Part shown: positions 22,667 to 33,908 of the stretch, one piece after another | Layout of the letters: the number at the start of each line of letters is the position of its first letter | Numbering within the stretch: the stretch's first letter is position 1 | Assembly: GCA_001800315.1 (NCBI GenBank) | Contig: MGVE01000013.1 | Location: forward strand, 4,451-68,450 | Source: Elusimicrobia bacterium RIFOXYA2_FULL_47_53 | GTDB lineage: Bacteria; Elusimicrobiota; Endomicrobiia; Endomicrobiales; XYA2-FULL-47-53 | Direction: 5' to 3' | Length of the DNA stretch: 64,000 nt | Program-made: the position numbers and the translations under genes | Notes under the pieces: model-generated | The model's database searches: none | Told to the model about the DNA's origin: nothing | What the model saw: the letters and a program-made list of their open reading frames with translations, nothing else

Positions 22667-23626
22667 CTAATCGGCTCCGAGCTTTATAGTCAATGATAAT
22701 TTGTGAAGGCCGCTGAGGGTGTCCCGGGGAATATACGCGTAGTCTAAATTCATTTCGTAAGCGTAGAAGAAGAAGACATCAACATTCTTAAGAATCAGGC
22801 CGGCCCCGTACGACAGCCCCGAATAATCCCCTCCGAGCGAATTATATCCGGCTCTTAGCGCGAATATTCTTCTTTCGCCCGGGAAATATTCCGCGCCGAT
22901 GCCGTAGCCGCCCTGTGACTTGCTGTTGGTAGTATAATCGGCTCCGACAACCAGGCTGTCTTTTAACAGCACAGAGGCGAGGCCCGCGTTTAAAGTCCTG
23001 GGCAAATCGTAACTTCCGTCTTTATACGAGAAATAGTCGGCATAATTTAAAAGTGAAATGCCGGCGGAAAGCTTGTGCCAGGGATGTCTGATAAGAATAC
23101 CTGAATCAAAAGAAAAATTATCACCCGAAGAACTTCTGAACTCTTCGGAGACGCTTTTAGCCGAAAGGCCCACGAAAACGCTGCCCAAAACGCTGTCCGA
23201 GAAAACCGGCTTAGCGTAAGTGAGCTGGGTTATCCTGTCCACGGGATGCGAAGGCGCGGCTCCCGCGGCTGACTGAAGGCCCCAGTCCAGGGCAGACATT
23301 GATACAGCCACCGCTCCGAGGTCATAGACATTGCCAACCCGGACATCCTCAAAATCATAAGCATAGGCCGCGTGCTGAAACGAGGCTCCCTCGTAAGGCC
23401 TGAAACTGGAAAATGAAAATTCATCTCTCGTGATAACGGACAGGCCCGCGGGATTTGAAAAAATAGAATCAATCCCTTCCGACATGGCGGCGCAGCGCGT
23501 TCCCATTGAGGCTATTCTGGCGCTCGGCAATACTTCAAGGGCGCGCGCCGAGGGCGTTTCTGAAAAAACCGGACGCGCGGAAGCCAAGAGAACCGCCGCT
23601 AAAAACAAACTATATATTCTTTTCAT
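22667..23626 (-). CDS. PorV/PorQ-like outer-membrane beta-barrel protein
   Basis: A 319-residue protein with a signal peptide (residues 1-22, cleavage near VFSET) and alternating amphipathic strands ending in aromatic residues through to LHKLSLTIKLGAD. The early block SARIASMGTRCAAMSEGIDSI with NPAGLS is the typical start of PorV/PorQ (UPF0164-like) barrels. These sit in the outer membrane and in some phyla shuttle or anchor secreted proteins. Here it may hold exported PEP-CTERM proteins or polysaccharide at the surface; that is inference from the locus. It starts the ligase/ACP operon. Confidence 0.82.
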   Translation of the reverse strand: MKRIYSLFLAAVLLASARPVFSETPSARALEVLPSARIASMGTRCAAMSEGIDSIFSNPAGLSVITRDEFSFSSFRPYEGASFQHAAYAYDFEDVRVGNVYDLGAVAVSMSALDWGLQSAAGAAPSHPVDRITQLTYAKPVFSDSVLGSVFVGLSAKSVSEEFRSSSGDNFSFDSGILIRHPWHKLSAGISLLNYADYFSYKDGSYDLPRTLNAGLASVLLKDSLVVGADYTTNSKSQGGYGIGAEYFPGERRIFALRAGYNSLGGDYSGLSYGAGLILKNVDVFFFYAYEMNLDYAYIPRDTLSGLHKLSLTIKLGAD

Positions 23627-24156: not shown

Positions 24157-26280
24157 TTAACTGTAGTAATAATCGTGCATATAACGAGGCATATAGTGAT
24201 CCTGCCTCGTCATAACAAACCCGAGAACCTTAGCCCCGACCTGCCTGAGCGACGACTTGATATTGATTACATCTTTCTGGTGAGTTTTCCCGGATTCAAT
24301 TGCCACAACGACCGCGTCGGAAAACTTTGAAAGCATCATGGCGTCCGGCATATTAAGCACAGGCGGAGAATCCATCACAATTATCTCAAACTGGGACGAA
24401 AGTGAATTTATCAGTTCTTTAAAAGAAGGCGAACCCATCAACTCCGTAGGATTTCCCTTGGCCGCGCCGCACGGCAGGAACCAGAGGTTATTTACGGGAG
24501 TCTGCCTGCACGCTTTCTGCGGATCTATGGAATTGAGCAGTATGTCCGATACCCCGGGATTAACGGGCGCGGAGAAAAAAGCGTGCAGAAGGCCCTTTCT
24601 CAGGTCGCAGTCCACAAGCAGAACCTTGGAGCCGCCAGCCGCTATGGCCGCGGCCAGGTTGGCCGAGGTCGTGCTTTTGCCCTCGCCGTGAATGGCGCTT
24701 GTAATGAGAAGTTTTTTTATTTTTCCGGAATCGTTGAGCCCGTGGAAAATATTTGTCTTTAACATCCTGTAGTCATCGGCTATACGGGAACGGGGATCGT
24801 GGTAAACCACCAGCTCGGCGGCCACCGAGGGATCCAGGCGCTTAAGCGCGATGTGCGGCACGGCGATCCTTATTTTTGAGAAAAGTTTATTATTTCGCAG
24901 GAAATCCCTGACGGCGGCCCGGAACTCCTTTTTATCCTTATTCTGAGTTTCCATGGCTATAGTTCCGACACTGCCCAGGCCCGTAAATCCGAGAACCGCC
25001 TGCGCCTGCTCGGGGGTATGGAATGTCTTAAAAATATTCTCCAGCAGGAAAACGCCTCCGCCGCCAAGCATCAGCCCTCCGAAGAAACCAAACAGCAGTA
25101 TTTTCATGAAGTTGGGTTTAACCGGCTTTAACGGCAGCCTCGCGTACTCAAGCACCGTGAATTGGTTTCCCTTTTCGGAATCCTGAAGCCGCTCGGAAAC
25201 ATAGGCCGACTCCAGCTGTCTTAAAAGCATCTGGTAGATATCCTCGTCAACCCTCTTATTCCTCTCCAGATTTGCCAGGCCTTCCTCGCCCAATTTCTTA
25301 GCGCCCCTGACACTCCGGGTCAAAAGGGATTCCCTTCTTTTCTCAAGATAGCTTATTTCCATATCCATCTGCTTTAGCTCCTGCTCGGTCTGCAGATACA
25401 TGGGATTAAAAGTTGATATGCTTTCTTTTACAGTTGTTTTCTCCAGCTCACTGCTTATCCTTGCCTTAAGCCCGGTTAACTCCGTCTGCAACTCCTGAAC
25501 TTTCGGGTTCCCCTCCTTGGCGTCTATCAAAAGGCGGGCAAGCTCGGACTCAATCTGACCGGCCCTCGCCTGAAGCTGAGAAACAACCGGATTCTGTTCA
25601 GTCGTAACCTGAGAGGGTATTATCTTCTGAAGATTGGCCAGGCGGTCCTTGAGCAGTGTCCTGCGGTTTTGCGCCACCCTCAGGTCGGAATCTATTTTAC
25701 TGACCGTAAAATTCTGTTCGGAGTTTTCCAGCTTAGCCCGGTAAATCTTCAGCTGTTCGTTTATGAAATCAATGGCGTTTTTAGCCTCTTCCCGCTTCCC
25801 CTGAGAGCTTTCCTCAATGAAGTTCTGGGTAAGCGTGTTGGCGACCATCTGCGCGCGCCTTGGATTTCCGTCCTGATAAACGACCTGTATGATCTCCCTG
25901 TTAACAAAGCGGACATTCACGCGCTTCCTCAAATTCGTTATGTAATCTTCCATCTGTTTCTGGGAGGCGTCAACGCTCACAAGGTTGAGCTGCAGGACAA
26001 GCTGTTCAAGCTTGGGCCAGGCCATAATCTGTTTGGAGAGCGTGTTTATTTCTTCCGCTATCTGGGGAGCTACGGCTATTTCGCTTACCAGCGGGTCAAT
26101 TATTTTTTTGCCGCGCACCTTAATAAGAGATGAAGCTTCGTAAACTCTCGGCATGAACAGCCCGGCCAGAACCGAGGAAAAAAATACCACGGAAAAAAGA
26201 ACAAGAAAAACATTCCTTTTCCTGATTAACAGCTCCAGCATATCGGACAGATTAAGTTGCTGCTGAGTTTCTTTTGTCAT
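24157..26280 (-). CDS. Wzc-like polysaccharide co-polymerase/tyrosine autokinase
   Basis: A 707-residue protein fusing a Wzz-type chain-length domain and a BY-kinase. Two membrane helices (about residues 19-40 and 400-425) flank a long periplasmic coiled coil. The cytoplasmic part has Walker A SAIHGEGKSTT, Walker A' VLLVDCDLR and Walker B IIVMDSPPV. The C-terminus HYMPRYMHDYYYS is the tyrosine cluster that is autophosphorylated. It controls chain length and export with the Wza-like protein encoded just upstream (6-nt gap). Confidence 0.92.
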   Translation of the reverse strand: MTKETQQQLNLSDMLELLIRKRNVFLVLFSVVFFSSVLAGLFMPRVYEASSLIKVRGKKIIDPLVSEIAVAPQIAEEINTLSKQIMAWPKLEQLVLQLNLVSVDASQKQMEDYITNLRKRVNVRFVNREIIQVVYQDGNPRRAQMVANTLTQNFIEESSQGKREEAKNAIDFINEQLKIYRAKLENSEQNFTVSKIDSDLRVAQNRRTLLKDRLANLQKIIPSQVTTEQNPVVSQLQARAGQIESELARLLIDAKEGNPKVQELQTELTGLKARISSELEKTTVKESISTFNPMYLQTEQELKQMDMEISYLEKRRESLLTRSVRGAKKLGEEGLANLERNKRVDEDIYQMLLRQLESAYVSERLQDSEKGNQFTVLEYARLPLKPVKPNFMKILLFGFFGGLMLGGGGVFLLENIFKTFHTPEQAQAVLGFTGLGSVGTIAMETQNKDKKEFRAAVRDFLRNNKLFSKIRIAVPHIALKRLDPSVAAELVVYHDPRSRIADDYRMLKTNIFHGLNDSGKIKKLLITSAIHGEGKSTTSANLAAAIAAGGSKVLLVDCDLRKGLLHAFFSAPVNPGVSDILLNSIDPQKACRQTPVNNLWFLPCGAAKGNPTELMGSPSFKELINSLSSQFEIIVMDSPPVLNMPDAMMLSKFSDAVVVAIESGKTHQKDVINIKSSLRQVGAKVLGFVMTRQDHYMPRYMHDYYYS

Positions 26281-26285
26281 AAATT

Positions 26286-26981
26286 TCAGGGGATAGGCAT
26301 TACCGCGGCTCTCGCGGCCGGTACTGTATTAGAAATCGGGCTTAAAAGCGTGGAAATCAGATCAGAAATCATGCCCAGGAAATTTTTTGGCACATAAACG
26401 ATATCTCCGGGTTGAAGCTTCGCGTTGTTTTCAAGCTCGCCCCTGTAGAGTATCCTGTAAAGATTGACGACCTTCGTTGAAGGCCTCTGAGGGCGCGGAG
26501 AAATAATATAAACCCTCCTGTCGGCCGCGAACCTGCCCGGCAAACCGGCGAGAATTACGGCGTCCCGAAGCGTGATGTTCTTTCCTTCGGTTGAATACCT
26601 GCCAGGCCTTGAGACCTCGCCCATAACATATATCACCTGGCTGGCGTACCTTACTATATCAATCGTCACTTTCGGGTCTTTGACATATTTCTCAAGCACC
26701 GAGGCAATGGCGACCTCGGCCCCGTCTTTAAGCAGGCCCTCAAGCTTAATCTCGCCTATGCTCTGTATGAATATTTTACCGTCAGGCCTTATGGTAAACT
26801 CTCCGCTCCACTCGGGATGCTGCTCCGCGATAATCCGTATAATATCATCGGGGCCCAGCATGTACCCCGAGGACGGCGAGGCCGCAGGGACAACCGGCGC
26901 GGCGCCGCCTGCTTTAAAGGAGGCGCAGGAAGCAAGGGCGGCTGAAGCGATAATAACAAGAATCATCTTGATTGAATTCAT
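26286..26981 (-). CDS. Wza-like polysaccharide export lipoprotein
   Basis: I place the start at the ATG at 26981, giving 231 residues. A GAGAGAG ribosome-binding site lies just upstream and the protein then begins with a proper lipoprotein signal, MNSIKMILVIIASAALASC. The longer frame up to 27071 would put this signal internally and overlap the EpsI gene. The mature protein has the export motif YMLGPDDIIRI, an SLBB-type repeat VIYVMGEVSRPGRY and LQPGDIVYVP. It should form the outer-membrane export channel with the kinase/co-polymerase. Confidence 0.9.
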   Translation of the reverse strand: MNSIKMILVIIASAALASCASFKAGGAAPVVPAASPSSGYMLGPDDIIRIIAEQHPEWSGEFTIRPDGKIFIQSIGEIKLEGLLKDGAEVAIASVLEKYVKDPKVTIDIVRYASQVIYVMGEVSRPGRYSTEGKNITLRDAVILAGLPGRFAADRRVYIISPRPQRPSTKVVNLYRILYRGELENNAKLQPGDIVYVPKNFLGMISDLISTLLSPISNTVPAARAAVMPIP

Positions 26982-26988
26982 AACTCTC

Positions 26989-27624
26989 TCATTCGGAATA
27001 TTGAGTAAGCACGGGCAAAAGCGCCTTAATAAAGTCCTCGCTGGCGCTTCTCGCGCTTTCCTTATCGTCAAATTTTATCTCGGTATAAACATTCACCGCC
27101 ATACCTCTGGAGAACCCCTTGAACATCCTGTCCGTTACAATTCGCGTCTGCTGGAGATAAAAATTGCTGTAGTAGTCGCGGCCCGCCGCGTAAAAATTAT
27201 GGACAAGTATGTCGTTGCCGTGGTCCGTTGAGAAAACCATCTCATTGACTTCCACAAGCCCGCCTTTAATTTCCGGAATGGCAATTGAAACGGCGCCCCG
27301 GCCGGCAAGCTCTGAGCCGGCGCCCGTCATGCAATACTCGGGCGGATGAAAAGCCGACCTGTTGTTGACTGCCTTGACGATTATAAGCTCCACGGTTCTG
27401 CCGGCTTTGTCCCGGTATATCCTGCCGATGACGGCATCGGTACCGAGAATATCAATGACTCTTTCCTGGAACTTGATATCTTCCGCCAGCTGCCAGGAAC
27501 CTATTTTAGCGGGAAGCGTCTTAATATCAACCGAGCTGACCCGCGACCTGCCGCCGTATAAAACAAACAGCGACAACCCTGCGAAAAAAATAAAAATTAA
27601 TAAAAGAACAATGCTTTTTTTCAA
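26989..27624 (-). CDS. epsI: EpsI family protein (exosortase partner)
   Basis: A 211-residue protein with an N-terminal membrane helix (about 4-24) and a periplasmic domain. It carries the family features: IGSWQLAEDI near residue 41, IYRDKAGRTVELIIVKA, and HPPEYCMTGAGSEL, where the His-Pro-Pro...Cys block is the EpsI hallmark. Family members occur beside or fused to exosortases and are thought to help them act on PEP-CTERM substrates or EPS. The gene overlaps the exosortase gene by 4 nt. Confidence 0.9.
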   Translation of the reverse strand: MKKSIVLLLIFIFFAGLSLFVLYGGRSRVSSVDIKTLPAKIGSWQLAEDIKFQERVIDILGTDAVIGRIYRDKAGRTVELIIVKAVNNRSAFHPPEYCMTGAGSELAGRGAVSIAIPEIKGGLVEVNEMVFSTDHGNDILVHNFYAAGRDYYSNFYLQQTRIVTDRMFKGFSRGMAVNVYTEIKFDDKESARSASEDFIKALLPVLTQYSE

Positions 27625-28478
27625 GCGCCGCGTCCCTGCTGTTTAAATATATTATAAACCATCATAAACAAACCGAACGCGATTACCCAAAGGACTATAC
27701 CTGCGCCGTCGTGAAGAATGCCGCCGGTAGCGGCCTCGGTTCCGTAAATATAGGCCGCGATGATAAGAAAAACTATCCGGGCCGTATTCGCCAGAACCGC
27801 GATCGGCAGGGAAAACGCAACTACCGCCGACTTCCTTAACATACTGCCTTTCAGGAAATACGCGAATACCACGCTTAAGGTAAACAGCGATATGAGCGAG
27901 TTTATGCCGCTGCACTCATTTTCAACCGTCAACATACCGTTGGGAAGGTAAATCACGCTCCCTTCGCGCAGTATATTCAGGTTCATCAACCCCACGACCC
28001 AGACCGCGGCCTGCGAGGCCAGTAGCTTAAGGTTAAAGGTCAGCCATATAAGCATGACCTTCGGAACCGGCACCATGAAAATGAGAAAAGACAACGGAAA
28101 AAGCAGGGCTCTGGTAATCTGCCGTCCGAACAGGTACAAAGACGCGCCTATCAGCGCGAAAATCAGCGCGAAACCGGAGAAAAACTTTATCCCCAGCACA
28201 AGCCCGACAAGCACATGCCCGGCGAGCGCCGCTATCAAAAGAGCTATCCCGAAATACGATGTTTCCTGCCGCATATTTTTGAGGCGCGGCAAACTTGAAT
28301 ATATAATATACGCCGAGAAAAACGGTATCAAAAAACCGTGCGAGTAATAAGAATCCGGCTCAACAAACCTGGCATACATCCACTGAAAAGTGTCAAAAAA
28401 TGTCGCCGCGACCGCCGCGGGAAGCAGAAAAAAGGGTATGAATCCGCCGTAACTTTTCTTAATTACCGCCTGGGACAT
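27621..28478 (-). CDS. xrt: Exosortase (transpeptidase-like membrane protease)
   Basis: A 285-residue polytopic protein, about eight membrane helices. It has the three conserved catalytic positions of exosortases: Cys189 in NECSGINSLISLF, Arg234 in LANTARIVFLI and His256 in GGILHDGAG. Exosortases recognise the C-terminal PEP-CTERM signal, cut near it in the periplasm and probably pass the protein to another molecule. Substrates in the window are at 32368, 33136 and, unusually, the fusion at 30872. It is directly followed by epsI. The exact subtype is not assigned. Confidence 0.94.
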   Translation of the reverse strand: MSQAVIKKSYGGFIPFFLLPAAVAATFFDTFQWMYARFVEPDSYYSHGFLIPFFSAYIIYSSLPRLKNMRQETSYFGIALLIAALAGHVLVGLVLGIKFFSGFALIFALIGASLYLFGRQITRALLFPLSFLIFMVPVPKVMLIWLTFNLKLLASQAAVWVVGLMNLNILREGSVIYLPNGMLTVENECSGINSLISLFTLSVVFAYFLKGSMLRKSAVVAFSLPIAVLANTARIVFLIIAAYIYGTEAATGGILHDGAGIVLWVIAFGLFMMVYNIFKQQGRGA

Positions 28479-29896
28479 TATTTCCTTTTTTCAAGCGCCC
28501 TTATTCTGCCGACGGCAGACAACGAGAGGCTGCCCGCGGGATATTGCTTAACGAACTCTTTGTATGTTTCAGCGGCAAGCGCTTTATTTTTCAGGTTGTT
28601 CTCGTAAATCATGGCGATTTTAAACAATGCGAACTCGGACTTTTTGTCCGCGGGGAACTTGCTCCTGATGGCCTTCAGTGTTTCCACGGCCGCCGCGTAT
28701 TCTTCCTTCATTATGTATGTCGCGGCCAAGAGCTCAAAAGCTTCCAGCGAAACAAGGTCAGCGCTTTTATCGTCTGTAAGCGACTTGTAGTATTTAACGG
28801 CTTCCTCAAACGAACGGTTGGCGCCGGCCTTATCGTTCTTTTTAACATAGTGGCCGGCGATTATCAGAGGCACCTGCATGGCGACCGGCTTGTCCGGAAA
28901 TTCGGAGCGCAGTTTATCGTATTCAGGCAGGGCTTCCTGCCACCTGCCGGCTTTATCATAACTAACAGCCACGGCAAATTGAGCCGCGGCGCGCAGGGAA
29001 CCGTCTTTTGGAAAAAGCTTGTTGACTTTGTCTCTCTCGGCGGCCGCGCCGGCATAGTCGCCCTTAAGCGCGTAAATATTGCCGATAGCCAGCTGGGCCT
29101 CGCCGGCGTATTTTGACTTTCCGTATTCCTTAACCGTTCTTGAAAAAATTTCAAGAGCCCTGGCGTTATTTTTCAGAGCTTCGGAATATATTTTAGCCGC
29201 CTCCAGCAGGGACTGAGGAGCGGCGAAAGCCTTGGGATATTTAGCGGCAAAGGAGAGAAGATATTCGGCGGTCTGGGAAGCCCGCCCCAGTTTACTGCCG
29301 GTTATGACCATAAGCGGGTGCACGGCGGACACTATTTTGCTGTAGGGATTCGTTTCAACTATGCTTTTATAGCCAGCGAAAGCATTTTCGTAGGCTTCCT
29401 TAGACTTGTCTTTCATGCCTGAGCGGGAATACAAGTCCGCCACATACACCGGCATCTGAAGGCCGAACTCGGAAGTAGGGTAACGGTCCATGATTTTTTC
29501 GTACTCAGCCACAGCCTCTTTTATTTTCCCGGCGTTCTCCTTAAGCTGTCCGAGAGCGTACCAGGCGCGAACCGTAACATCATGCCTGTCCGGGTAGTCT
29601 ACAATTACTTTTTCAAACTCACCGGCGGCCGCGGAGACTCTTCCCCTGGCTGAGTTCAATTCACCAAGCATGAGCTGAAGGTCGGCGGCATTGCTCCAGG
29701 CGGGATATTTATCAATTACACCTTTTAAATCTTTTAGGGCGCCGTCAAAATCCTTCTCGGCGGCCCGGACAGGAGACCGCAGTGTCTGGCTGTGCAGCCT
29801 GGTAACATTATAAAGCATTCTCTCGGCGTCATAATCACCGCCGCAGGATGAAAGAAATAATACGGCTGTTAATAACAGAAGATGCGTTTTCCTCAT
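28478..29896 (-). CDS. TPR-repeat lipoprotein
   Basis: A 472-residue protein with a lipobox, FLSSC (Cys near residue 18), after a hydrophobic signal. The remainder is a solenoid of about eight to ten TPR/Sel-like helix pairs with the recurring pattern of tyrosine, glycine and alanine, for example AAGEFEKVIVDYPD, AVAEYEKIMDRYPT and AAETYKEFVKQYPAG. It is presumably periplasmic, tethered to a membrane, and acts as a scaffold for the exosortase/EPS export machinery. TPR proteins are standard partners in these loci. Its end touches the exosortase start. Confidence 0.87.
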   Translation of the reverse strand: MRKTHLLLLTAVLFLSSCGGDYDAERMLYNVTRLHSQTLRSPVRAAEKDFDGALKDLKGVIDKYPAWSNAADLQLMLGELNSARGRVSAAAGEFEKVIVDYPDRHDVTVRAWYALGQLKENAGKIKEAVAEYEKIMDRYPTSEFGLQMPVYVADLYSRSGMKDKSKEAYENAFAGYKSIVETNPYSKIVSAVHPLMVITGSKLGRASQTAEYLLSFAAKYPKAFAAPQSLLEAAKIYSEALKNNARALEIFSRTVKEYGKSKYAGEAQLAIGNIYALKGDYAGAAAERDKVNKLFPKDGSLRAAAQFAVAVSYDKAGRWQEALPEYDKLRSEFPDKPVAMQVPLIIAGHYVKKNDKAGANRSFEEAVKYYKSLTDDKSADLVSLEAFELLAATYIMKEEYAAAVETLKAIRSKFPADKKSEFALFKIAMIYENNLKNKALAAETYKEFVKQYPAGSLSLSAVGRIRALEKRK

Positions 29897-30729
29897 AACC
29901 TGCCCTCTATTTCCTTGTTTTTCATAAAGAATACAGTTACTGAAACCGTGTAAAAAATATCTGCTAATAAAATAAAAAATATTTTAGCCGCGACAAACAG
30001 GATGGATATCTCAGGAAACGATTTTTCCATCATGCCGCGCATGTTAACAAACAAAAACGGCAGAACAATCAGATTGGGTCCCAGAACAACTAACAGAAGC
30101 TTTACGGGATAATTCTTAAACAGCGCGACCGCGCGTTTAAAAGACTGGGGGAGCTTCCTGTTTTCAACTATTACGGCGGGGATTCCGAAAGCGAACAGGG
30201 CCTGAATAAGAACCCCGAACAAAAACATAAGAAGCACGACGGCCTTTACGGAAGTGGTCACATACTCAAGCAGAAGGTATGAAGTCCTGGAAAAAGCGTA
30301 GATGAGCACAAATACGGCAACCCACAGGCCGAGCATACGGAAATATCTTTTAACAGATTTGCCGAACCCGAAAAACCAGCTTGGCTCGCCCGACTGGAAC
30401 AGCTGGGCCGTCATGGAAATAGTTATGCCGGACATTATCAGGCCGAAAGTGAAATCTATGGCATTTTTTGAATAATTAAACAGCGTCGGGAACAGAATCA
30501 GGTTAAACGGATAGTGCAGGAAACGATCGCCCCAGAAAGCTTTTACTATAGGAGAAAACACCGTGGAAAGAGGATACCGCGGGGAAAGATAGACTACACA
30601 CATGCCGGCGATATAAAACAAAGCGGTAAACAAAAATGGCGCCGCTATAACCGGCTTTTTTTTAAGCAACTCATATGATTCTTTCCAAACGGAGAGAACG
30701 CTAAGTTTATTGCCCGAATTGCCACTCAT
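29893..30729 (-). CDS. Polytopic membrane protein of unknown function
   Basis: A 278-residue protein with about six hydrophobic segments. It begins with a soluble stretch, then VIAAPFLFTALFYIAGMCVVYL, and contains SFKRAVALFKNYPVKLLLVVL, an arrangement similar to the membrane domain of glycerophosphodiesterase-like or DUF4013-like proteins. I do not recognise a specific function. It is the first gene of the exosortase operon: a sigma70-type promoter lies just upstream (30762-30791), and its end overlaps the TPR lipoprotein start by 4 nt. Confidence 0.75.
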   Translation of the reverse strand: MSGNSGNKLSVLSVWKESYELLKKKPVIAAPFLFTALFYIAGMCVVYLSPRYPLSTVFSPIVKAFWGDRFLHYPFNLILFPTLFNYSKNAIDFTFGLIMSGITISMTAQLFQSGEPSWFFGFGKSVKRYFRMLGLWVAVFVLIYAFSRTSYLLLEYVTTSVKAVVLLMFLFGVLIQALFAFGIPAVIVENRKLPQSFKRAVALFKNYPVKLLLVVLGPNLIVLPFLFVNMRGMMEKSFPEISILFVAAKIFFILLADIFYTVSVTVFFMKNKEIEGRL

Positions 30730-30871: not shown

Positions 30872-32314
30872 CTATCTTGCGCCCTTGGAAAGAATGACCG
30901 TGCCGATAGTCTTGAAAAGTATCTGTATATCCATCAGCAGGCCCCTTTTCCTGGCGTAAAGCAGGTCATACCTCAGTTTTTTTCTGGTTCCCTCTACGGT
31001 ATCGGTGTAGCCGTTCATAACCTGGGCAAGGCCCGTTATTCCGGGTTTTACATAAAAACGCGTGTTGTAATTCTCTATATCGTTGTCAAGTTGTTTTACA
31101 AAAACCGGCCTCTCGGGCCTGGGGCCTATTATGCTCATATCGCCCTTGAGCACATTAATAAGCTGGGGCAGTTCGTCAATTCTCGTCATTCTGAGAAATT
31201 TACCAATGTGCGTTATCCTTGAATCGTTTTTCGCGGCCCAAACCGGGCCGGTGCCTTTTTCAGCGCCCATGGTCATGGTGCGCAGTTTGTATATTGTGAA
31301 AGGTTTACCGAGAACATCGTCGCTGCGCATTTCGCCCTGAGCGGGATTGCCGCGCGGAGCCCTGGATCTTCTTCTATTTTCGCCTACCCGTTCCTGTTTA
31401 TAAAACGCCGGGCCCGTGGAGTCTAATTTAACAAGTATGGCCGCGACCGCGACTATGGGAGCCGCGAGCACTATTCCGATGGAAGCAAGAAGAATATCTA
31501 AAAACTTTCTGAACTCGCTGTACCTGCTTCTCGCGAATGATGCCAGCGATCCCGCCAGGCCGAGCATTATCAGAACCATCGTGGAAGGTTCCGGAACCGG
31601 AGTGGGATTGATATCGGCCCTCAGCGTCAGGTAATCGTTGCCGCAGCTCATTGTCCAGTGCAGTTTGATATCCCTGCTGGTATGCCTGTTAAAACCAAAC
31701 GCGGAGAGCGGAACGCTTGCCTCAAGCACATAGTGGCTGTTGATAGCCTCGCTGAAAGCAAAGTCAACGGGAGCATCCACTGCGCAACCGGAGAGTATAT
31801 TGTAGGGAGTGGAAGAATACAACCCGTTCTGCCACACGCAGTTCTTCTTTAGAACCGCGCTCTCCGAGCCGAGCACCTCAATGCCGTATTCGTAAATATT
31901 GTCGCCGTCAGTATTGATGGCTATGTCGCCGGGCCATATATATGACGGAGAGAAACCCTGCGGCGAGGCGGCGCCGTTTACCGGAAGGCCCTGCACAACG
32001 GCCATGTAGAGGTTCTCGCCGTCATTATCAAAATAAAAAGCCTCGGCATCGCACATATTGCCAAAACTGTACTGGGGGCCGACAAACCAGGCTCCGTGGC
32101 TGTAGGCCGGATTTCTGGTGTTATCCGCGTTGTCTTCAGTAATGTAATCTATGTCCGAGCCGCCCGCGGGTGTGTCGGAATCCAGGGCGAACCTGGACCC
32201 GGCCTGCAGAAGATTTACGCCCCAATCGTCCACCAGCCCATCAATAATGTAGGAATGGGCCGCGGAAGGAAGCAATAAAGCGCAGCATAAGATTAACTTA
32301 ATGTTTAAACGCAT
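30872..32314 (-). CDS. PEP-CTERM exosortase substrate fused to a priming sugar transferase
   Basis: One uninterrupted frame of 480 codons encodes two proteins that are normally separate. Residues 1-21 are a signal peptide and 22-238 a secreted domain of unknown family. Residues 239-266 form a full PEP-CTERM signal: VPEPS (240-244), a hydrophobic helix and an Arg-rich end, RSRYSEFRK. From about 272 a bacterial undecaprenyl-phosphate sugar transferase follows: a membrane segment, KLDSTGPAFYKQERVGEN, FTIYKLRTM, RMTRIDELPQLINVLKGDMS, GPRPERP and KPGITGLAQV. The ATG at 32314 is chosen for its GGAG ribosome site and proper signal peptide. No other priming transferase is seen in the locus. Confidence 0.9.
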   Translation of the reverse strand: MRLNIKLILCCALLLPSAAHSYIIDGLVDDWGVNLLQAGSRFALDSDTPAGGSDIDYITEDNADNTRNPAYSHGAWFVGPQYSFGNMCDAEAFYFDNDGENLYMAVVQGLPVNGAASPQGFSPSYIWPGDIAINTDGDNIYEYGIEVLGSESAVLKKNCVWQNGLYSSTPYNILSGCAVDAPVDFAFSEAINSHYVLEASVPLSAFGFNRHTSRDIKLHWTMSCGNDYLTLRADINPTPVPEPSTMVLIMLGLAGSLASFARSRYSEFRKFLDILLASIGIVLAAPIVAVAAILVKLDSTGPAFYKQERVGENRRRSRAPRGNPAQGEMRSDDVLGKPFTIYKLRTMTMGAEKGTGPVWAAKNDSRITHIGKFLRMTRIDELPQLINVLKGDMSIIGPRPERPVFVKQLDNDIENYNTRFYVKPGITGLAQVMNGYTDTVEGTRKKLRYDLLYARKRGLLMDIQILFKTIGTVILSKGAR

Positions 32315-32367: not shown

Positions 32368-32982
32368 TTACAACAGCAGCTTCTTCCTTGAAGCCACAAG
32401 GCCTAATAAACCTGTTCCAAGCAACATTAATGTCGCCGGTTCAGGAACAGCTGTTGCGGTAGTCACCTTAAATGTAACCCCACTATTGCGATAATGGCAA
32501 TCAGGATCAACACCAAACCCAAAATCATCATTAGTGGCAATGTAATTCTGAAGGTCATCAATCAATCCGAGAGAACTGAATGAATAGACCAAGTCAAAAT
32601 TACGCGCTACTCCGCCAAGAGGGTCACTCCATGTGCCGACAAGGACACCTTGTCCGGCAAACATATCATTAGTGTCTCCGTCCCAAACCCCATCTGTCCC
32701 GCTAAGCGTACCTAACACTGCTGAGTCAAGCAAATGAGTGTAGAGCATGTCCCCATCTTCAACAGCCCAGTCATAAATATTCTTATAAGTAAGAACCGCT
32801 TCCTCAATGTACTCAGTGGGAGCAAGGTTAAGCTTAAGACCCCATGTGTAGAAATAAGAATGATTCAAATCCCCTAAATCATACGGGGTTGGCTGATAAG
32901 TATAAATAGCCGACTGAGATACTCCTGTGAGCACGGCCATGACAGCCGAGATTAACAACACTTTTACTAACGCTTTTTTCAT
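32368..32982 (-). CDS. PEP-CTERM sorting-domain protein
   Basis: A 204-residue secreted protein. It has a signal peptide (about 1-25, cleavage after SQSA), a domain of unknown family rich in aromatic and acidic residues, and the C-terminal sorting signal VPEPATLMLLGTGLLGLVAS followed by RKK. Exosortase should cut at the PEP motif. The gene has a strong AGGAGGTG ribosome site. It lies next to a second PEP-CTERM gene and the fusion gene, forming a substrate cluster upstream of the exosortase operon. Confidence 0.92.
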   Translation of the reverse strand: MKKALVKVLLISAVMAVLTGVSQSAIYTYQPTPYDLGDLNHSYFYTWGLKLNLAPTEYIEEAVLTYKNIYDWAVEDGDMLYTHLLDSAVLGTLSGTDGVWDGDTNDMFAGQGVLVGTWSDPLGGVARNFDLVYSFSSLGLIDDLQNYIATNDDFGFGVDPDCHYRNSGVTFKVTTATAVPEPATLMLLGTGLLGLVASRKKLLL

Positions 32983-33135: not shown

Positions 33136-33807
33136 TTATTTCTTTATTTTTAGTGCCGCGATGCCGAACAATCCGGTTCCAAGAAGGAACAGGGTTGCCG
33201 GTTCAGGGATAGGCCTGGGAAAACCGCCGGCGCTGCTGGTCTTGGGCGAGAAATCGTCTTTCCAGTCAATCATTCCATTTTTGTTTGTATCGGCAAGAGC
33301 GAAGAAATGGTCTCCCTCGGTCATGATGCCGGTGTATGAAATAGGAGCCGTGAACATATAATAGGTTTTATTGTCCAAGTCGTTTGTGGTCTGCCAGAGG
33401 GACTGGGTTTTAGGAAGCAGAGTATTGTAATAAATGCAAGAGGGATTGTTGTATCCATCTATCTGATGATCCACATTCTGGGTAAGCGCAAGCTGCTGGT
33501 TGTTAAAGTAGAGAGGAAAATTGTCGCCGCCCGTGTTTGAAATAAAGTATATGTCGTTCAGCCATGGCACATAAGAAGTGAATACGGTAAGGTTTGAGCC
33601 GGAAGGCCCGATAACAAAACCATGGTAATCGGGGTTCGCGGCGGGAACTATGGTATCGGCGAAATACTGTATATAAGTCCAGTTGACGGCATCCGCGTCA
33701 GCATACGCGTAAGTACCCGCGGCTACACCCAGCGAAGGAGTAGCGTTTACCGGAACCGTCAAAAATAATGCCGCTGCCGCAACCAAAAACAAAAAGATTC
33801 TCTTCAT
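33136..33807 (-). CDS. PEP-CTERM sorting-domain protein with EF-hand-like motif
   Basis: A 223-residue protein from the ATG at 33807, chosen because an AAGGGGAAG ribosome site precedes it and the protein then begins with a regular signal peptide, MKRIFLFLVAAAALFL. The longer frame to 33852 would place the signal internally. The mature domain has no family I recognise; near residue 180 the motif DTNKNGMIDWKDDF resembles a calcium-binding EF-hand or dockerin loop. The C-terminus is IPEPATLFLLGTGLFGIAAL followed by KIKK, an exosortase signal. Confidence 0.9.
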   Translation of the reverse strand: MKRIFLFLVAAAALFLTVPVNATPSLGVAAGTYAYADADAVNWTYIQYFADTIVPAANPDYHGFVIGPSGSNLTVFTSYVPWLNDIYFISNTGGDNFPLYFNNQQLALTQNVDHQIDGYNNPSCIYYNTLLPKTQSLWQTTNDLDNKTYYMFTAPISYTGIMTEGDHFFALADTNKNGMIDWKDDFSPKTSSAGGFPRPIPEPATLFLLGTGLFGIAALKIKK

Positions 33808-33908
33808 TAAACTTCCCCTTTTAGACACATATTCCACAAGATGACAACCCATGATTTACAGCGGACACAGCAAAAACAAAAAACGAACAGACTCCCCCGA
33901 AAGGAAAG

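Follow-up and report, generated by a model that had tools for sequence, protein, structure and literature searches.

PEP-CTERM proteins carry a sorting signal that normally lies at the extreme C-terminus, with 87% of them having fewer than 10 extra residues after it, and PEP-CTERM regions at internal positions have been thought possibly non-functional (Haft 2006, PMC1569441). What exosortases add to the new C-terminus is described as a compound that has yet to be identified and may be a modified sugar (Veith 2020, PMC7468200).

The 64,000-nucleotide stretch of Elusimicrobia bacterium RIFOXYA2_FULL_47_53 DNA that we analysed (the window) holds a genuine fusion of a PEP-CTERM protein with an intact monotopic phosphoglycosyl transferase (PGT), the type of enzyme with which polysaccharide synthesis begins. 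A single frame of 480 residues runs on the minus strand from an ATG at 32314, with a GGAG-like ribosome site immediately upstream, to a stop at 30872 (Table 1). The original prediction had read a signal peptide, a secreted domain, a full PEP-CTERM signal and a PGT in this one frame, and our searches place both Pfam domains in the same protein: PEP-CTERM at residues 239-259 (26.2 bits, cut-off 20.7) and Bac_transf at residues 336-474 (E = 1e-59). The TIGR02595 model also passes (19.5 against a cut-off of 16). Haft 2006 (PMC1569441) supports the premise of the original prediction that such signals normally lie at the very end of the protein; here residue 262 is followed by another 218 residues.

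The secreted domain had no usable match in Pfam, NCBIfam or PDB, and AlphaFold2 gave no confident model of its fold (pLDDT 34). Hydropathy, on which the signal peptide call also rests, indicated no helix between the signal peptide and the PEP motif. AlphaFold2 predicted both membrane helices, that of the PEP segment and the reentrant one (Table 1), and, with confidence, a PGT fold that matches PglC (E = 3e-12). The catalytic Asp-Glu pair D380-E381 and the helix-breaking P286 are invariant in an alignment of 17 sequences. Lys and Arg make up 17% of the part after the PEP helix, which would be cytoplasmic, against less than 4% of the secreted part, and Cys is absent after the helix, a composition on either side of the helix that is as expected for outside versus inside. 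Both the topology that had been proposed for the fusion, which we infer from these data, and its position within an exosortase operon are upheld. We also observed an Arg-rich insert (NRRRSRAPRG..., window 31310-31378) between the QxRxG and KxRTM motifs of the PGT, which is common to the window protein, its counterpart in a sister genus (G001) and phylum mates (L051-L053) and is not present in the planctomycete forms described below.

Table 1. Features of the fusion protein and of the surrounding operon, in window coordinates.
Feature	Coordinates	Strand	Evidence
Signal peptide, residues 1-21 (MRLNIKLILCCALLLPSAAHS)	32252..32314	-	hydrophobic 3-19, basic start, small residues before likely cut
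Secreted domain, residues 22-239, ~216 residues, four Cys, few basic residues	31598..32251	-	composition
VPEP motif, residues 240-243	31586..31597	-	PF07589 and TIGR02595 above cut-off
PEP-CTERM transmembrane helix, residues 244-262	31529..31585	-	hydropathy; helix predicted at 243-263 (AlphaFold2)
Basic junction RSRYSEFRK, residues 262-270	31505..31531	-	gapless alignment to Planctomycetota PGTs
PGT reentrant membrane helix with invariant Pro286	31418..31504	-	alignment and model (predicted at 265-298, AlphaFold2)
PGT catalytic domain, residues 300-480, D380-E381 intact	30875..31417	-	PF02397; PglC/WbaP match in sequence and fold
Ordinary PEP-CTERM protein, ends VPEPATLMLLGTGLLGLVASRKKLLL, gene directly upstream of fusion	32368..32982	-	
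Ordinary PEP-CTERM protein, ends IPEPATLFLLGTGLFGIAALKIKK	33136..33852	-	
Membrane protein, 278 aa; homologue follows orthologous PGT gene in sister genus	29893..30729	-	
TPR protein	28478..29896	-	
Exosortase, sole one in genome, conserved Cys189 and Arg234	27621..28478	-	PF09721 E = 5e-60; residues invariant
EpsI, exosortase-associated	26989..27624	-	TIGR02914 above cut-off
Polysaccharide export protein	26286..27071	-	
Chain-length determinant / tyrosine autokinase	24157..26280	-	

The whole genome encodes one exosortase and three PEP-CTERM proteins, the fusion being one of the three, and all of these lie within the fusion operon. Along the minus strand, two PEP-CTERM genes precede the fusion, which is followed by genes for the membrane protein, the TPR protein, the exosortase, EpsI, the export protein and the chain-length determinant/kinase. 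Farther downstream are XrtA-type amidotransferases, an acyl-CoA ligase, glycosyltransferases, an O-ligase-like protein and a flippase-like protein. As far as we checked, the locus has no other priming transferase, in line with the earlier statement; a second PGT, of ordinary form, is encoded on a different contig. Also downstream of the exosortase operon is a PorV/PorQ-like outer membrane protein (window 22667-23626), which scores 82 bits against a cut-off of 90. PorV/PorQ-like proteins are components of type IX secretion.

An orthologue of 281 residues (identity = 52% over the matching part) was found in another genus of the same family, in genome G001. Only about 20 residues separate its signal peptide from a motif that has decayed to PPPEA, after which come the helix, the basic junction and the PGT. 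A search of this genome found neither an exosortase nor a PEP-CTERM protein, and as the genome is 91% complete the absence of the exosortase is likely rather than certain. In its locus the PGT is followed by the membrane gene and the chain-length gene, and the exosortase block is missing. Thus the genome in which no exosortase was detected also has a degenerate motif and next to no secreted part, which is consistent with co-evolution. The membrane protein downstream of the fusion and its homologue (L021 7377-8207), neither of them assigned to a family, adjoin the PGT in each genus, including the one where no exosortase was detected.

The original prediction had treated the fusion as unique and had proposed a check for its recurrence. 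The join of PEP, helix and PGT does recur, in the sister-genus orthologue and in Planctomycetota, so the fusion does not stand alone, whereas the full form with the secreted domain was found in one genome only. A wider scan first brought in one Brocadiaceae and one Planctomycetia contig in which a PGT starts at MPEP, followed by a helix and a basic cluster. PGTs that begin exactly at MPEP and have no secreted domain were present in 10 genomes (9 of 392 sampled Planctomycetota and one Brocadiaceae genome). A junction profile run on the 392 genomes gave E <= 3e-30 for the MPEP-PGTs, with alignments that begin at the first column, and E >= 6e-18 for ordinary PGTs, with alignments that begin later. 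This gap is partly by construction, because the MPEP-PGT sequences went into the profile itself; the MPEP starts were read directly. Five of the planctomycete genes have an in-frame stop 4-10 codons ahead of MPEP, so translation must start there. The Pro-Glu-Pro codons vary synonymously among the 10 sequences with the residues unchanged. From PEP to the QxRxG motif the window protein aligns to the planctomycete proteins without gaps, except for 1 extra residue within the PGT in two sequences. The matches listed for 95 genomes of the window's class and 340 of its phylum included no case beyond the window protein and its sister-genus orthologue, and the join was found in none of the 240 Verrucomicrobiota, 247 Desulfobacterota and 175 Pseudomonadota genomes sampled.

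The planctomycete genes are frequently neighbours of exosortase or PEP-CTERM genes. One MPEP-PGT lies directly after exosortase-EpsI (L202) and another close to exosortase-EpsI (L201), one lies between an exosortase and a PEP-CTERM gene (L081), two adjoin PEP-CTERM genes (L084, L206) and two adjoin export and chain-length genes (L203, L204). An exosortase was found in 9 of the 10 MPEP-PGT genomes versus 7 of 17 genomes with related PEP-less PGTs (Fisher p = 0.018), a contrast that is small, post hoc and drawn from draft genomes. The L081 protein reaches 20.9 with PF07589 (cut-off 20.7) and 15.7 with TIGR02595 (cut-off 16); the other MPEP-PGTs have PEP-CTERM scores of 12-15 bits or no match. 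Several close PGTs without PEP lie inside exosortase loci, for instance in G459 and G533, so the PEP segment is not required. The PEP has been lost and the helix kept in some copies, which read MSEQ, VPQP or SPRP at this position. Genome G485 has two close PGT copies (L205/L206), one starting MPEPVT and the other MSEQVT, which form a natural pair for probing the role of the PEP motif. In G737 (L208 1099-14569), a draft genome with no exosortase found, two PGTs with VPQP and SPRP replacing PEP are located amid nine tandem PEP-CTERM genes.

In a tree of the PGT domain, every PEP-bearing form and some PEP-less forms make up one moderately supported group (87/85), with the window protein and its sister-genus orthologue at the base of the group. 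A clade made solely of PEP and decayed forms, that is a single clean origin, was rejected (AU test, p = 9e-7). The same test did not reject a tree in which the window pair joins the PEP-less PGTs of their own phylum (p = 0.38). The history fits either an ancient join that was lost repeatedly or several separate joins.

We put it at an even chance that the fusion belongs to a small, unnamed set of PGTs that use an exosortase recognition segment as an N-terminal anchor and so dock at the exosortase. In such an anchor the PEP motif would lie outside, the helix would cross the membrane and the basic end would lie inside, with the helix tethering the PGT to the inner membrane and its active site facing the cytoplasm. 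By mimicking a substrate, the PEP anchor may keep the PGT beside the exosortase. This is the simplest account to accommodate every form, and it is supported by retention of the motif in proteins that have no cargo and by its decay in a genome in which no exosortase was detected. The anchor of the window organism would additionally bear a complete secreted domain with its signal peptide. The exosortase would then cut the protein at PEP, the secreted domain would be sorted to the surface or the exopolysaccharide, and the remnant in the membrane would be PEP, helix and PGT, the layout of the planctomycete MPEP proteins. Such a cut, and with it a coupling of sorting to the onset of polysaccharide synthesis, is what the original prediction had proposed and would apply to the window protein. 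Since the join recurs without a secreted domain, the main role cannot be solely the release of that domain. The recurrent joining of tag and enzyme suggests a physical link between the sorting enzyme and sugar synthesis.

In the main alternative the anchor would be a relic: a PEP-CTERM gene may have lost its stop so that translation continued into a neighbouring PGT, the helix alone being of use, as an additional membrane anchor, and the PEP and secreted domain being passengers. The fusion does lie directly 3' of a pair of PEP-CTERM genes that share its strand, the sister genus retains helix and PGT with a decayed motif and no exosortase found, and the MSEQ, VPQP and SPRP copies exist. We nevertheless consider this rather unlikely, as PEP is exact right after the start Met in ten planctomycete PGTs despite codon variation, and the decay in the sister genus coincides with the absence of an exosortase, as would be expected if the motif had formerly been used.

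The frame itself bears on two other explanations. The stretch that separates the PEP helix from the reentrant helix contains no in-frame start codon; the nearest in-frame ATGs are codons 246 and 250, within the PEP helix, so the PGT of a split gene would need to begin inside the helix. GC3 along the gene shifts modestly and requires no change of frame. An assembly or sequencing error that fused two genes would account for the full form being present in one genome only, but this is exceedingly improbable given that the PGT has no start codon after the helix, that no frame slip is needed and that in the orthologue of the other genus, from a genome without a detected exosortase or PEP-CTERM protein, a single frame covers signal peptide, helix and PGT. 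A single frame might also yield two products: the long protein would be the precursor of an ordinary exosortase substrate, and a functional PGT would start at codon 246 or 250. The ATGs within the helix are in frame, a weak GGAA lies a few bases upstream of codon 246, and related planctomycete PGTs begin near the same point (MTLASLVLRRRF...). However, an internal start would shorten the helix, and most relatives with this helix carry PEP within the PGT itself, which makes two products very unlikely.

If the docked-anchor reading is followed further, the PGT could be a fixed partner of the exosortase whose lipid-linked sugar is, or leads to, the exosortase acceptor, the PEP anchor bringing acceptor synthesis to that site; we regard this extension as distinctly unlikely. 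An exosortase signal and a starter of lipid-linked sugar in one protein, recurring in a second phylum, do offer a candidate acceptor pathway and a simple test construct. The join also shows that PEP segments can function, or at least survive, N-terminally on an enzyme that faces the cytoplasm, a position that annotation overlooks.

Compared with known systems, the fusion resembles PEP-CTERM exosortase substrates (PF07589/TIGR02595) in its signal peptide, secreted domain, PEP motif, helix, basic cluster and an exosortase in the same operon, but differs from them in the length of what follows the signal, where these proteins have just a few residues. A limited search of the open-licence literature returned no report of a PEP-CTERM signal fused to a PGT. 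With its reentrant helix, Asp-Glu pair and PglC-like fold, the protein has the structure of a monotopic PGT (PF02397; PglC, WbaP), and its enzyme activity is predicted. It differs both from the small monotopic PGTs, which are bare, and from the large ones, which carry a four-helix bundle. It is similar to the usual transferase of XrtA systems, TIGR03013 EpsB_2, in its role in the locus and its C-terminal domain, but scores 243.3 bits against a cut-off of 393.35 and does not have the N-terminal half of that family. The nearest in kind are the bifunctional PGTs with added domains, a class named in PMC10942596, the addition in the fusion being a sorting signal and a secreted domain.
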